Shown piece after piece: positions 2,143-8,887 of a stretch of 64,000 nt of DNA. Position numbers and translations under genes: made by a program. The notes under the pieces were generated by a model. The model saw only the letters and a list, made by a program, of their open reading frames with translations. It had not been told where the DNA came from and searched no databases. Each line of letters starts with the position of its first letter. Positions within the stretch are counted from its first letter, which is position 1. Origin of the DNA: Flavobacteriales bacterium (lineage in GTDB: Bacteria > Bacteroidota > Bacteroidia > Flavobacteriales_F > PHOS-HE28). Where the stretch lies: the NCBI GenBank assembly GCA_026129465.1, contig JAHCIA010000001.1, positions 3,011,503 to 3,075,502 of the forward strand. Reading direction: 5' to 3'.

Positions 2143-2988
2143 GTGGAGATCCTGAGGAATCCAGCCCTTACGGCCCAGTGGTCGGCCGATGCCCGGCGGG
2201 CGGGCCACCAGGTGGGGGCAGTGCCCACCATGGGCGCCCTGCATGCGGGACACCTGGACCTGGTGCGACGGGCCTTGGACCAATGCGGCCGGGTGGTGGT
2301 CAGCATCTTCGTCAACCCCCTGCAATTCAACGACCCCCGCGACCTGGCGGCCTACCCCCGGCGCGAGGCCGAGGACCTGGCCCTGCTGCGTGCAGCGGGC
2401 TGCCATGCGGTCTTTCTACCGGACGCGGAGGCGCTCTTCGCCGGGCACCAGCCGCTGACCTACGACCTGGGCGGACTGGACCAGTACTGGGAAGGCCCTT
2501 CACGCCCCGGTCACTTCCAGGGCGTGGTGAATGTGGTGGAGCGGCTCTTCCACTTCATGCGGCCCGATGCGGCCTTCTTCGGCGAGAAGGACCGGCAGCA
2601 GCTGGCCATCCTGGCCCATGTGGCGCGCAGCCTGCGCTGGCCGGAGCGCATCGTGCCCTGCCCCACGGTGCGCGAGCCTGATGGCCTGGCCATGAGTTCG
2701 CGCAACATGCGCCTCTCCCCGGCGGAGCGCCAGCAGGCCACCGTGCTGTACCGGGCACTGCAGACCGCCGCAGGGGCCGCCTTTCGCGAAAGCGTGGAGG
2801 ACTCCCGCGCCAAGGCCCTGGCCGTGCTGGCCACCGAACCGGCCGTGGTGCTGGACCATTTCGGCATCGCGCACCCGGAGACCTTGGCGCCACTTTCAAA
2901 TTGGAATGGTCTGGATGAAGCCGTGGCTTTGATCGCGGCTTTCGTGGGGCCGGTGCGGTTGATCGACAATGTGACGCTGCGGCGGTAG
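2143..2988 (+). CDS. panC: Pantoate-beta-alanine ligase
   Basis: PanC joins pantoate and beta-alanine in an ATP-dependent reaction to give pantothenate, the vitamin B5 core of coenzyme A. The 281-residue protein has the family signatures in order: PTMGALHAGH at residues 28-37 (the HIGH-like nucleotide-binding loop), FGEKDRQQL mid-protein, and EPDGLAMSSRN toward the C-terminal part. Length is normal. The start is GTG at 2143; no ATG is available upstream in frame. It is divergent from the glgA-like operon. The matching beta-alanine supplier, panD, sits 5.5 kb downstream on the same strand, separated by secreted-protein genes. Confidence 0.95.
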   Translation: MEILRNPALTAQWSADARRAGHQVGAVPTMGALHAGHLDLVRRALDQCGRVVVSIFVNPLQFNDPRDLAAYPRREAEDLALLRAAGCHAVFLPDAEALFAGHQPLTYDLGGLDQYWEGPSRPGHFQGVVNVVERLFHFMRPDAAFFGEKDRQQLAILAHVARSLRWPERIVPCPTVREPDGLAMSSRNMRLSPAERQQATVLYRALQTAAGAAFRESVEDSRAKALAVLATEPAVVLDHFGIAHPETLAPLSNWNGLDEAVALIAAFVGPVRLIDNVTLRR

Positions 2989-3053
2989 ATCTTGGATCTT
3001 GCGCTTCCTCCGTCAGACCTGTATGGAAATGAAGTAATTCGGATCCGCATTGC

Positions 3054-3084
3054 TTGGAAATTCGATATTGGCATGCTAGGTTCG
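3054..3084 (+). promoter_or_regulatory. Probable promoter of SprB-repeat gene
   Basis: TTG at 3054-3056 and TAGGTTCG at 3077-3084 (one mismatch to TAnnTTTG) are spaced by 20 bases. The expected start near 3091 lies just ahead of the ATG at 3106, which supports that ATG as the true start of the frameshifted gene. Confidence 0.45.
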
Positions 3085-3105
3085 TTCCACCCTATTCCAT
3101 CGATC

Positions 3106-4408
3106 ATGCGCTTTTATCCCCCCCCCCGGCAAGATCTCTTTCCTGCTGATCGCCTGCGCGGCCGCAGGTCTTTGTGCTGAAAGCGCCTTCGCCCAACCGC
3201 TCAACATCACGCTCGTCCGCAGCAATTACAACGGCTATGGCGTCAGTTGCTTCGGGGGCACCAATGGTAGCATAGAAGCCATCGTCACCGGGGGAACAGT
3301 GCCCTACACCTATTTGTGGTCCAACCAGGACACCACCGCCGCCACCAGCGGCCTGGCAGCGGGTTACTACCGCGTAACGGTGACGGATGCGGACAGCACA
3401 AAGCGCTATGCGGAGATCACCCTCTCGCAGCCCAGGGCCCTCATTGTGGGATTGACGCCCTACACCTGGCCGAACGGCTACAACGTCAGCTGCCACCAAT
3501 GCTACAACGGCAGCATCCAGACCGGTGTGCAGTATGGCGTGCCACCCTACAGCTACCTGTGGCAGGATGCCGTCACCACGCAGCACCGCACGGCCATCGG
3601 TGCAGGCAACTACCAATTGGTGGTGACGGACCACAATGGCTGCCAGAACCAACCCGGGGCGCTGTTCCTCTCGGAACCCGCCGACAACAACTGGGACAAG
3701 GGTGGCAATGCGGGCACGGATCCGGAGGTGGACTATCTGGGCACGTCGGATCCCACGGACTTCGTGCTGAAGAGCAACGGAACGGAACTCGTCCGCCTGC
3801 TTGCAGGAGGGGGTATCAAGCTGGGCCTGCCGTCCGGGATCCTCGGTCTGGACGATGACGGCGAGCTGCGCGCTTTCCTCACCAAGCCTTGGTGCTGGCC
3901 GGCCGGGGATACGACGGTGGCTCCTTGGTACACCTGCGGGAATGTCATCGACAACCCGAATGGCATCTACTTTATCGGCACGGTGAACAACGCTCCACTG
4001 CCTTTCCGCACCAACAACCTGCAACGCATGGTCATCACCAGCGAGGGGCGGGTGGGGATCGGCACCAACCCACCGGCTGGCGCAGTGGATGGTTACCGGC
4101 TCTTTGTGGAGGATGGCATCGTCACGCGGGATGTGCTGGTAAAGTTGGGTGAATGGCCGGACTATGTCTTCGATGACGGCTACCGTTTGATGCCCTTGAC
4201 GGAACTGCGCGCTTTCATACAGGAGCACAAGCACCTGCCAGGTCTACCGTCTGCGACAGATCTTGAGGTTAGAGGCGGGGTGGAACTGGGTGGGATGCAG
4301 CGAACTCTGGTGAGGATCGTGGAGGAACAGGCACTGTACATCTTGGCATTGAAGGATGAGGTCGGGGATCTGAAGCATCTCATGGAGGAGATCCTCAAGA
4401 ACCGCTAA
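3106..4408 (+). CDS. SprB-repeat surface protein, frameshifted at a C10 tract
   Basis: The ATG at 3106 opens MRFYPPP and then meets ten cytosines at 3118-3127, after which the reading is out of frame. The downstream frame, open from 3080 to 4408 without an ATG, encodes a typical export signal (KISFLLIACAAAGLCAES, then AFAQ) directly after the tract, so nine cytosines would restore one 433-residue protein. The mature part has two SprB repeats (each with SCFGG or SCHQC, then PYTYLW or PYSYLW, then a VTD motif), a fibre-like middle with VGIGTNPPAG, and the common Bacteroidota C-terminal module WPDYVFDDGYRLMPL...HLPGLPSA followed by a coiled-coil end. SprB repeats occur in adhesins. The shift is phase variation, a dead gene, or a sequencing error. 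Confidence 0.75.
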
Positions 4409-4419
4409 GCCCACATACC

Positions 4420-7400
4420 ATGCGCTGGACATTCGCCTTCGTTTGGCTATGCCTTGTCGGGAATGGTACTGCGACCGGACAGACCCCTGTTGACCACTCA
4501 CGCCAAGATTTCGGCGAACTCCTCCATCGGCTTCGGATCAAGTACGACAGCTTGATCGCCGCAGGCGATACATTGGAGATATTCAGGGAGGGGGGCGATT
4601 ACACCAAGTTCAAGAAGTGGGAAAGCCAGTGGTCGTTGAGGATATCGCATGGCCAACCGTTCGAGGAATTCATGGCCGCTGAGCAGGCTGGTGAGGCCAT
4701 CCTTCCCGATCGAAAAGCCCATGCCAAAAGCAATCAGGACATGTGGCATGAGGTGGGTCCATTGGACAAACCCTATTCTGATGTACCATATGGATTGGGG
4801 AATCAAGGCCAGAGAATGGAGCCTGGAATTGGGCCGGTCCACTTCATCACCATCTGCGAAGAGGACCCGGATCTAATGTTGTGTGGCTCAGCCCTTGGTG
4901 GATTATTTTATCGTCGCTTGTCCACGATGAGCAAATGGCAGAATGCAGGAAGTGACCAATGGCTCAGGAGTCCATGCCGGCATGCTGTATTCAAAGTGGA
5001 TGACCCTAACGTTTGGTACGCGGCGAACTCCGAACATTTGGGCTTCGTAAGGGGGATATACCGAAAGAATCTCAATGATTTGACGTTGGATATGATAGCG
5101 GACCATTCGGACCTGGGTGAATGGAACAAGATCGCACAACTGCAAACGGATCCCGATAATGCCGATGTGCTATACGCAGCGACTTGGGATGGTCTGTTCC
5201 GGAGCACGAATGTGAACGAGCCTGATCCGACATGGGTGAAGATCATGTTACCTGCGCCAACTAACGACCTGACCTACGGGGACTACACCTACCTGCCATG
5301 GCAACGGATACACGACATCGCCATAGAACCCGGCAATGGACAGCATTTGTATGTGGCCGTCATGTTCAGCGGTGAAAAGACGGTCGACGTGGGAGGGACT
5401 CCTACTGTACTCAAAGTTGAGTATTGGCGGCTCCTTCAATCATTCGATGCCGGAGCCAACTGGGTGGTGGTGTCAAACATGCCTTCAACCAATTGGGTGA
5501 CGGATCCCGACGACCCCAGTCTTCAACGAAACCACCGACGCATCAACATCGAAACATCGATGCACGACCCGGAACTCCTCTATGTCATGCTTGACATATA
5601 CAGTCCACCATGGGCAGGGAAGGTGTATCGTGTTTCCGACCTTGATGTACCTGCTTCTACAACATGGACACACTTGGCTGATAACCAGGTAGTGTATGGA
5701 GATGGTTATGGATATGGCGTGTCACAAACAACGTTCAACGACATCTACATCGGGCATAGTGATCGTTACAAGACCGCTCTCAATGTCACGACAGTACAGT
5801 ATGGAAACCTACATGCTAATGCCGAACAATATCATGTGGATGTCGAGGATTTCGTGGGGCATCCAACGCAAGCCGGGGAGGTATGGATGGCCAACCATGG
5901 AGGTGTACATCGGTCCACGGACGATGGAGCGAATTGGGAGTGGTTGGGCCATGGGCTTGGTGTAGCAGAGGTATACCGCATGGCGGATTCATACTCGGAG
6001 CCGGGTCGTATTGCACTCGGTTTGTACCACGATGGAGTCGTACTTTCTGATGATGTATTCGCTCCGGACTGGGTTCCTAGTTGGCGTCAACTGGGAGGTC
6101 TCGATGGACAACGACCACTTATACATCCTATTGAGGGTAATAGGATATACTGGAATTCGCAGCATAATTATAGCAGTTTCAATTATAGAAGCGCAGATTA
6201 TGGGGTGAACAGAACTTTGCTAAATAGCCCTGGGTCAACGGATTGGAACACGGATTGGGCCTTGCACAGAAGGGCTATCGGAGTATTGTTCACGCACAGG
6301 CAGGTGTCATCTGAAGGCCAAGAGATCCGACGATCGCTGGACAATGGAAGCACTTGGGAGGACGTTTCGAACTTTCATGCACTCAACTCAACGATGCCGG
6401 ACTTCCTCAGTTCTGGAGTCTGGAGGATCTACCGGCCGTGGTCCGCTCCCGATCAACTTTGGGCTCATGTCATTGTTAAGCGCATCAGTGGTTCGCCAGA
6501 CATTCAAAAGCTTTACCGCACCATGGACGCTCAGGCATCAGCGGCAGATGTCCTGTCAAGTTGGGAAGAGATGGCCTTCCCCATGATCCCGGACCCTGAT
6601 GACCTTGGTGCGATGATCCCCAGGAACACCGGACATTGGATCGCGGATCTCGACTTCGACCATTCCAACCCCAATGTCGCGTGGATCGCCTACTCGTCGG
6701 ATGCACCAGGCACTGATGCTACCGGCCGGCACATGCTGTTCCGAATGGACTATAGTTTGGCCCCGACCGATCCGGGCTACCAGGTCGATTACACCGGCAG
6801 CTCAGACAATGCTCTGCCGAATGCGGGCATAGGCTGGGATGCGTTGGTACTCGAACGTGGTAGCAATGGCGGTGTTTACCTGGGAACGGACATGGGGGTG
6901 TTCTACACGAACGCCGCGTTCATGTCCGACGGAACAGAATGGGTCCATTTGGGCTTGGGGCTCCCTCGTGTACGTATCCAGGGACTGGAGATCAACTATC
7001 AGGTGAACAAGGTCAGGGCTGGGTTGCAGGGAAGGGGGGTGTGGGAGCACAACTTGTATTGTCCCGAGTTCGATGAGCTGATAGAATCGGGCACCTATGG
7101 TGCGAACGCATTCATTGAATCCTTGAGCTTCATCGAGTCCACGGCCGAGATCCCAAGTGGGATGGAAGTGAACTATCGGGGTGGAAGCGAGGTTCGCTTG
7201 CTGCCGGGCTTCCGTGCCGAGGCAGGGTCCCGGTTCCACGCGTTCATCCACCCTTGCAACGGGCCGGGCAACAGCTTCAAGATGATGCCCTATCAGGGGA
7301 CACCTACCAATGACGTAAGGAGTTGGAACGCGACAGCCACCTCGAAATTGAAAGTATATCCCAATCCGAGTATGGGTAGTTTCACCATTGAGCATCTGGA

Positions 7401-7590
7401 AGAGTCGCCAATTGTACGGGTGGATCTATGTGATGCACAAGGAAGGGTTGTCCCCCTCTCTTGGCGATCAGCGCACGATGGCAGATTGCTCTGTGAAAGC
7501 GGATTGCTGGTACGGCCAGGCATCTACGTGGTCCGGACGGTCACAGAAAATGGACGCACAAGTAAGGGCTCAGTTCACATTCAACATTGA
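4420..7590 (+). CDS. Large secreted BNR/sortilin-like beta-propeller protein with T9SS sorting domain
   Basis: A 1056-residue exported protein. A short signal peptide ends near GNGTATGQ. The body carries repeated propeller-type motifs such as GGLFYRR, DGLFRSTN, GGVHRSTDDGANWEWLG, RRSLDNGSTWEDV and GGVYLGTDMGVFYT, the pattern of BNR/Asp-box or VPS10-like beta-propellers. A linker around residues 890-920 resembles the carbohydrate-surface module ending in LLPGFRAEAGS. The last 80 residues (LKVYPNPSMGSFTIEH to the end) are a type A Por secretion sorting domain, so it should be exported by T9SS and attached or released at the cell surface. It follows the SprB-repeat gene by 11 bases. Visible base composition is AT-richer than the flanking housekeeping genes. 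Substrate unknown. Confidence 0.85.
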   Translation: MRWTFAFVWLCLVGNGTATGQTPVDHSRQDFGELLHRLRIKYDSLIAAGDTLEIFREGGDYTKFKKWESQWSLRISHGQPFEEFMAAEQAGEAILPDRKAHAKSNQDMWHEVGPLDKPYSDVPYGLGNQGQRMEPGIGPVHFITICEEDPDLMLCGSALGGLFYRRLSTMSKWQNAGSDQWLRSPCRHAVFKVDDPNVWYAANSEHLGFVRGIYRKNLNDLTLDMIADHSDLGEWNKIAQLQTDPDNADVLYAATWDGLFRSTNVNEPDPTWVKIMLPAPTNDLTYGDYTYLPWQRIHDIAIEPGNGQHLYVAVMFSGEKTVDVGGTPTVLKVEYWRLLQSFDAGANWVVVSNMPSTNWVTDPDDPSLQRNHRRINIETSMHDPELLYVMLDIYSPPWAGKVYRVSDLDVPASTTWTHLADNQVVYGDGYGYGVSQTTFNDIYIGHSDRYKTALNVTTVQYGNLHANAEQYHVDVEDFVGHPTQAGEVWMANHGGVHRSTDDGANWEWLGHGLGVAEVYRMADSYSEPGRIALGLYHDGVVLSDDVFAPDWVPSWRQLGGLDGQRPLIHPIEGNRIYWNSQHNYSSFNYRSADYGVNRTLLNSPGSTDWNTDWALHRRAIGVLFTHRQVSSEGQEIRRSLDNGSTWEDVSNFHALNSTMPDFLSSGVWRIYRPWSAPDQLWAHVIVKRISGSPDIQKLYRTMDAQASAADVLSSWEEMAFPMIPDPDDLGAMIPRNTGHWIADLDFDHSNPNVAWIAYSSDAPGTDATGRHMLFRMDYSLAPTDPGYQVDYTGSSDNALPNAGIGWDALVLERGSNGGVYLGTDMGVFYTNAAFMSDGTEWVHLGLGLPRVRIQGLEINYQVNKVRAGLQGRGVWEHNLYCPEFDELIESGTYGANAFIESLSFIESTAEIPSGMEVNYRGGSEVRLLPGFRAEAGSRFHAFIHPCNGPGNSFKMMPYQGTPTNDVRSWNATATSKLKVYPNPSMGSFTIEHLEESPIVRVDLCDAQGRVVPLSWRSAHDGRLLCESGLLVRPGIYVVRTVTENGRTSKGSVHIQH

Positions 7591-7595
7591 TTTTC

Positions 7596-8459
7596 ATGCG
7601 CATCATTACTTCCCTGCTATTGGGCATGGTCATGCTCCCGGCTGTCATGGCGCAGCAGTCCATTGCGATGTCGAACGCCAGATGGACCGTATCAGAGCAT
7701 TTGGGCCCGAACATAAACAATATATTATATATCCGGACGTCAGAAAGTGGGTATGACACGATCATTGATGGAAAGGTGTGTAGCAAACTGTTCTGGTACA
7801 ACGCCGATGTTCCATTCGGAGCACTATGGGACAATATGCAAGGCCAGGTGATCTTTTATCGGTTCCAAGATAGCAGTGAACACCTTCTGTACGACTTCGA
7901 TGTATCAGTGGGCGACACCGTGCATGTCTTCAATGAGCCCTATCAATGGGATCCCATCATTGTGACAGCGGTAGACACGATAACTGTGGCCGATACACCT
8001 CGGAAACGTATACACTTGTTCAATTCGGAGGTATACTGGATAGAATGGATTGGTGGCACCCAAGGCTTGCTGACCACGTGCGGTTGTATCACAGTATCCA
8101 TGGCGTATTGGCTGGATTGCATGAGTGCCGACAACGTGATCCAGTTCCCTGTGGATCTGTCGGGGGGAGAGGGGCACTGTTTTTCTCCTGCCGGTATGGT
8201 GGAAGTGGGATATGGTCATGTGTTGCGGATCTACCCCAACCCCACCCCCGGCCGCTTCACCGTGGAGTTCCCCGATCCCCTGCTGAAGGACAGCTACTAC
8301 AGCGTGTACGATGCCATGGGCCGGTTGCTCTACCAGCGGCCGCTGCCCACCGGCGCCACCGTGGAGGAGGTGGATCTCTCGCGCTTCGGGCGCGGCACCT
8401 ATGTGCTGCGGGTCACGGACCCCGAGGGGCAGCGGCATGAACGGGTGGTGGTGGAGTAG
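7596..8459 (+). CDS. Secreted protein of unknown function with T9SS sorting domain
   Basis: The ATG at 7596 lies 5 bases after the preceding stop and gives a 287-residue protein with signal peptide MRIITSLLLGMVMLPAVMAQ. The middle has no domain I recognise; it reads as a short beta-rich secreted protein. The C-terminal part from LRIYPNPTPGRFTVEF to the end is a clear type A sorting domain. Codon usage changes sharply near 8215: the body is AT-rich like the upstream gene, whereas the sorting domain is as GC-rich as the chromosome, which suggests that the body and tail have different origins. A TTG nine bases upstream is an alternative start. Confidence 0.8.
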   Translation: MRIITSLLLGMVMLPAVMAQQSIAMSNARWTVSEHLGPNINNILYIRTSESGYDTIIDGKVCSKLFWYNADVPFGALWDNMQGQVIFYRFQDSSEHLLYDFDVSVGDTVHVFNEPYQWDPIIVTAVDTITVADTPRKRIHLFNSEVYWIEWIGGTQGLLTTCGCITVSMAYWLDCMSADNVIQFPVDLSGGEGHCFSPAGMVEVGYGHVLRIYPNPTPGRFTVEFPDPLLKDSYYSVYDAMGRLLYQRPLPTGATVEEVDLSRFGRGTYVLRVTDPEGQRHERVVVE

Positions 8460-8503
8460 GGCCGCATGCGCACGCGCCTGCTGCTTCGGTCCCGGCATGG
8501 CGC

Positions 8504-8511
8504 TACCTTTG
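8504..8511 (+). promoter_or_regulatory. -7 box of panD promoter
   Basis: TACCTTTG matches TAnnTTTG exactly, followed by CCGCC and the panD ATG 19 bases further on. No good -33 TTG is visible at the expected distance. Confidence 0.55.
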
Positions 8512-8530
8512 CCGCCCTCGCTACACGGCC

Positions 8531-8887
8531 ATGCCCATCACCATCGAAGTCATGCGCGCCAAGATCCACCGGGTGAGCATCACCCAGGCGGCGCTCAACT
8601 ACATCGGCAGCATCCAGCTGGACGAGGACCTGATCGACGCCGCCGGCATGGTGGAGGGCGAGAAGGTGCAGGTGGTGAACGTGAACAACGGCGAGCGGCT
8701 GGAGACCTACATCATCAAGGGGCCGCGCGGCAGCGGCATGGTGAGCCTCAACGGCCCGGCGGCGCGCAAGGCGCAGGTGGGCGATGTGGTCATTGTGGTG
8801 GCCTATGGCAGCATGCCGCTGGAGGAGGCCCGCGCCTTCCGGCCGGTGGTGATCTTCCCCGACGAGCGTACCAACCGGCTGAAGTGA
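8531..8887 (+). CDS. panD: Aspartate 1-decarboxylase
   Basis: PanD decarboxylates L-aspartate to beta-alanine for pantothenate synthesis and becomes active by self-cleavage that creates a pyruvoyl group. The 118-residue protein has the family start RAKIHRVSIT, the cleavage site in YIGSI (between Gly26 and Ser27), and the conserved NGERLETYII and NGPAARKAQVGD segments. Length is normal for the proenzyme. An internal ATG at 8552 would remove residues that family members usually have, so 8531 is kept. It is the first gene of a tight run with the LPG-synthase-like gene, rfaE2 and radA. Confidence 0.95.
   Translation: MPITIEVMRAKIHRVSITQAALNYIGSIQLDEDLIDAAGMVEGEKVQVVNVNNGERLETYIIKGPRGSGMVSLNGPAARKAQVGDVVIVVAYGSMPLEEARAFRPVVIFPDERTNRLK

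Follow-up and report, generated by a model that had tools for sequence, protein, structure and literature searches.

The window, by which we mean the whole stretch of 64,000 nucleotides that was analyzed, sits on a 3.86 Mb contig and carries on its forward strand a gene whose start codon and body lie in different reading frames. The ATG (3106–3108) opens a frame that crosses a tract of ten cytosines (3118–3127), the proposed slippage site, and ends after 24 codons at a TGA (3178–3180), giving a short out-of-phase frame at 3106–3180. The body of the gene (3128–4408), which encodes a predicted secreted SprB-repeat protein with its signal peptide, SprB repeats and C-terminal module in a single frame, is open as far as the stop codon at 4406–4408, and a search of that frame upstream of the signal peptide for ATG, GTG and TTG identified none. 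A preliminary description of the locus had stated that the only ATG opens the wrong frame through the ten cytosines, and that the signal peptide and all modules downstream are in another frame with no upstream ATG; both observations were confirmed, and the second extends to GTG and TTG. A putative promoter is located at 3054–3084 and consists of a −33-like TTGG (3054–3057) and a −7-like TAGGTTCG (3077–3084). The latter conforms to TAnGTTCG, a motif with a variable third base that is common to all five copies of the gene in this genome and is followed in each by a conserved GATC-ATG-CG. Promoters of the Bacteroidota have the form TAnnTTTG, which this motif resembles. Two copies have an extra upstream in-phase ATG (TATGTTCG) that could be an alternative start, but is more likely part of the −7 promoter element given that the third base varies among the copies. 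At 2143–8887, a panC-like ORF (2143–2988) and a panD-like ORF (8531–8887), both named by eye from their translations, flank the gene together with two others that have matches to type IX tails (4420–7590 and 7587–8459).

The predicted protein begins with a type I signal peptide, KISFLLIACAAAGLCAESAFA (3131–3193), that was assigned by eye following the usual rules with cleavage before Q, and the AxA-Q pattern recurs in relatives. Two Ig-like SprB-repeat domains follow (3203–3685), identified by a match to Pfam family PF13573 in two stretches at 58 bits, well over the gathering cutoff of 28. The C-terminal module (4025–4405), with the motifs RMVIT..VGIGT..WPDYVF..HLPGLPSA..EEQALYIL and a long terminal helix, is conserved in relatives and has no match in Pfam or NCBIfam. 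A structure model is confident for the SprB domains only (residues 25–185) and includes the terminal helix, and as such it supports an architecture of two Ig-like domains plus a helix; Foldseek matches were to generic Ig-like folds, with the adhesin SiiE among the best, and a sequence search of the PDB produced weak matches only. Neither Por_Secre_tail nor any other type IX sorting domain was identified in the window protein with Pfam or NCBIfam, so it could not be classed as a type IX secretion substrate, whereas the two neighboring genes do match Por_Secre_tail. Since no sorting domain was found, the predicted surface location of the protein is uncertain and is based on the signal peptide and the SprB repeats.

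The C10 tract on its own is unremarkable, because 100 dinucleotide shuffles of this G+C-rich window gave an expectation of 0.63 C10 or G10 runs per window and at least one such run in 38 of the shuffles. The case for a switch therefore rests on a comparison of family members, and it was solely through this comparison that a chance run could be ruled out. A protein search of the genome identified three further full-length copies, 85–89% identical to the window copy, and a fifth copy (contig 3154125) that is truncated and lacks most of its body. Poly-C occupies identical codons in each of the five, with ten cytosines in the window copy and 9, 12, 16 and 12 in the others. None of the five conserved ATGs is in phase with the signal peptide, and the shift goes one way in two copies and the other way in three. 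Despite this, the bodies of the four full-length copies are under purifying selection (dN/dS of 0.06–0.27), values that argue against their being dead genes. Compared with two other copies, the window copy is more diverged in its last third (dS ~0.7) than in its first two thirds (0.1–0.2), which suggests mosaic exchange.

Relatives were collected by protein similarity, not by the presence of a tract, from the same genus and from a single genome belonging to a different family of the class. A repeat was found directly after an ATG, ahead of the hydrophobic core of the signal peptide, in most family members (~39 of the 55 examined), and was absent from that position in ~16 homologues; as some members have no repeat, the switch must have been gained or lost within the family. 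The repeats include poly-C up to C16, poly-G up to G15 (and a G19 near a contig end), (AC)10, (GCACGCC) at 3.3–5.3 copies and (GCACACG)4, and a more distant relative has (GAGAACA)14. Their units are one, two or seven nucleotides long and never a multiple of three, which means that every one of them shifts the frame, and a simple non-triplet repeat between start codon and gene body is the arrangement of a contingency locus. The preliminary description had proposed checking whether homologues have a tract of variable length, and this was the case both for the five copies in the genome and for the related genomes, where poly-C, poly-G, dinucleotide and heptanucleotide repeats occupy the same place. 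On the family tree, in which the truncated fifth copy of the source genome is misplaced, the type of repeat changes at least 18 times. A conserved Pro-Pro-Pro at the protein level was considered and rejected: relatives encode runs of Gly or heptamer-derived peptides instead, and proline codons are mixed in the bodies, whereas the tract yields CCC exclusively.

The placement of these tracts goes beyond chance. A C or G run of at least eight was present within 260 nt before the mature start in 17 of 27 family loci (named contigs), versus only four in the 165 kb that flank them (Fisher p ~2e-23, a value that overstates independence because the loci are related by descent) and versus two of 58 other long ORFs. 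Since members were found by protein similarity and not by their tracts, the enrichment is not a selection effect. The ATG is in frame with the body in eight of the 39 members with a repeat after the ATG, or 11 when alternative starts are counted, and these numbers are compatible with one third. In-phase and out-of-phase alleles of intact, selected bodies were also found: genome G008 has two genes whose bodies are identical over 900 nt, one with G10 (out of phase) and one with G9 (in phase), and genomes G026 and G024 have near-identical genes with G9 and G10. The length differences seen are those between copies and between species. Separately, the bodies of L108 and L110 (G008) and of L063 and L105 (G023, G013) are 99.8–100% identical with diverged 5′ ends or tracts, which suggests that recombination or gene conversion may occur between copies. 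In L062 and L104 (G004) tracts of C13 and C10 precede the apparent start codon and may fall within the promoter region. The contig that holds L096 (G000:C1:3862162-3862203) terminates in low-complexity G/C runs that are probably an assembly artefact.

Phase variation had been put forward for this gene in the preliminary description, and the copies, the relatives and the identical bodies with G10 and G9 all support that reading. Based on these comparisons, the window gene is very probably a contingency gene, present in about five dispersed copies, that encodes a multi-copy surface protein subject to slipped-strand translational phase variation. Slipped-strand mispairing at replication would add cytosines to, or remove them from, the tract that separates the start codon from the signal peptide. 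At some lengths translation from the fixed ATG would enter the signal-peptide frame and produce an exported SprB-repeat protein (on), and at others it would reach an early stop (off), with the window copy being in the off phase in this assembly. Each copy would be switched independently by its own tract, and cells that display different subsets of the copies are accordingly expected to occur side by side in a clonal population.

It is very improbable that the shift is instead an error of sequencing or assembly and that the true tract is in frame with the gene always on. Long homopolymers are error-prone, the conserved ATG being out of frame in all five copies could hint at systematic errors in tract length, and in the source genome two more secreted genes change frame at a G10, one of which is shifted a second time at a G7. 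Against this, the genome is 99.72% complete, several C9 or G9 runs within other genes are in frame, and the tract recurs in five copies and many independent assemblies. Several contigs of the relatives bear k141_ or NODE_ names, which are in the style of short-read assemblers, so that long-read error alone does not account for the tracts; likewise, the heptamer and dinucleotide repeats of relatives are not artefacts of homopolymers. Sequencing error, which the preliminary description had named as the main rival, thus fails to explain a tract at this position, since it is present across many independent assemblies, and what stands of the objection is that the exact number of cytosines given by this assembly may be wrong. 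A wrong count would still leave a slippage-prone tract, and possible indel errors in this assembly, at which the G7 shift hints, leave the family-level conclusion untouched.

Programmed ribosomal or transcriptional slippage, in which the DNA is unchanged and a steady mixture of products is made, is very improbable. RNA polymerase is known to slip on homopolymers of at least eight nucleotides (PMC3711429), but such a mechanism predicts one conserved slip sequence and a constant direction of shift, whereas the five copies are shifted in both directions (two against three), the type and length of the repeat vary between relatives, and repeats of heptamers do not serve as slip sites of this type. 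A single loss of frame in a gene now decaying into a pseudogene is extremely improbable: the fifth copy has indeed lost most of its body, but the four full-length copies are otherwise undisrupted and have the dN/dS values given above, and many relatives have intact bodies whether in frame or out.

The reading that we favor, slippage-driven phase variation of a multi-copy gene, has parallels in known systems. The opa genes of Neisseria encode multi-copy surface proteins and have CTCTT repeats in the code for the signal peptide. As in opa, where the repeat switches translation on and off, there are several dispersed copies of a surface-protein gene here, each with its own start-proximal repeat; unlike opa, the protein is unrelated, the repeat is poly-C placed before the core of the signal peptide with other repeat types in relatives, and the system is known from sequence alone. 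In the poly-G/C contingency loci of Campylobacter and Neisseria (for example, PMC6321876 and PMC5084427), too, the reading frame is set by a homopolymeric C/G tract within the coding sequence, although those loci belong to host-associated pathogens or commensals, and the one described here to an uncultured Flavobacteriales genome and an SprB-repeat protein. SprB of Flavobacterium johnsoniae is a gliding adhesin and a very large type IX secretion substrate (PMC7807042). The window protein shares with it the SprB repeats (PF13573) and, by prediction, secretion, but at ~430 residues, with two SprB repeats, a different C-terminal module and no match to a sorting domain, it is not a gliding adhesin of the SprB type. 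The invertible promoters of Bacteroides also bring about phase variation of the cell surface within the Bacteroidota, but by site-specific inversion (reviewed in PMC11868660) and not by slippage of a repeat inside a coding sequence.

Other genes of the genus have comparable tracts. A search of the genus for an ATG closely followed by nine cytosines led to a second secreted family, of ~1500 residues, in which ten of 13 members (L242, L243, L246–L249 and L251–L254) have a start-proximal repeat of C9 to C16, G8 to G11 or (TTCC)12. Two of the 13 were tract-selected seeds; without them a repeat is present in eight of 11 members and a homopolymer tract in seven of 11 (p ~1e-11). The source genome itself has a member of this family, L243 (G000:C1:3514453-3515121), with a C9 at 3515179–3515187. 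Also tract-bearing are a metallopeptidase-like secreted protein, for which the Pfam matches were below cutoff, and a LytTR-domain transcription regulator with C12 directly after the ATG (L232, G013:C67; L230, G031:C325), which is in phase in one genome and out of phase in the other and of which a close form was found in two genomes only. In the source genome, the two genes shifted at G10, L083 (G000:C1:437341) and L089 (G000:C1:2188404), encode proteins with type IX sorting tails, and the second shift at G7 is in L089; these may be further switches or assembly indels. Taken together, the tract-bearing genes look like a multi-locus set of switching genes. We think it likely that this uncultured Flavobacteriales genus, represented mostly by MAGs and probably composed of non-pathogens, has a multi-locus system of repeat-driven phase variation that includes at least two unrelated secreted families (that of the window gene and that of ~1500 residues), type IX-tail proteins and a LytTR regulator, with repeats that have arisen anew as mono-, di-, tetra- and heptanucleotides.

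Repeat-driven phase variation is of a kind already known, and in the open-access papers that were searched there was no report of such switching in SprB-repeat proteins or in uncultured environmental Flavobacteriales. One practical consequence is that automatic annotation, taking such genes for frameshifted ones, truncates or drops them. If the tract slips in living cells and the protein is exposed at the surface, its on/off expression may affect attachment, or the exposure of cells to phages or grazers. The titles of their records indicate that at least some of these uncultured Flavobacteriales come from environmental metagenomes, and a multi-locus case among them points to pressures besides host immunity, such as phages, grazing or attachment.
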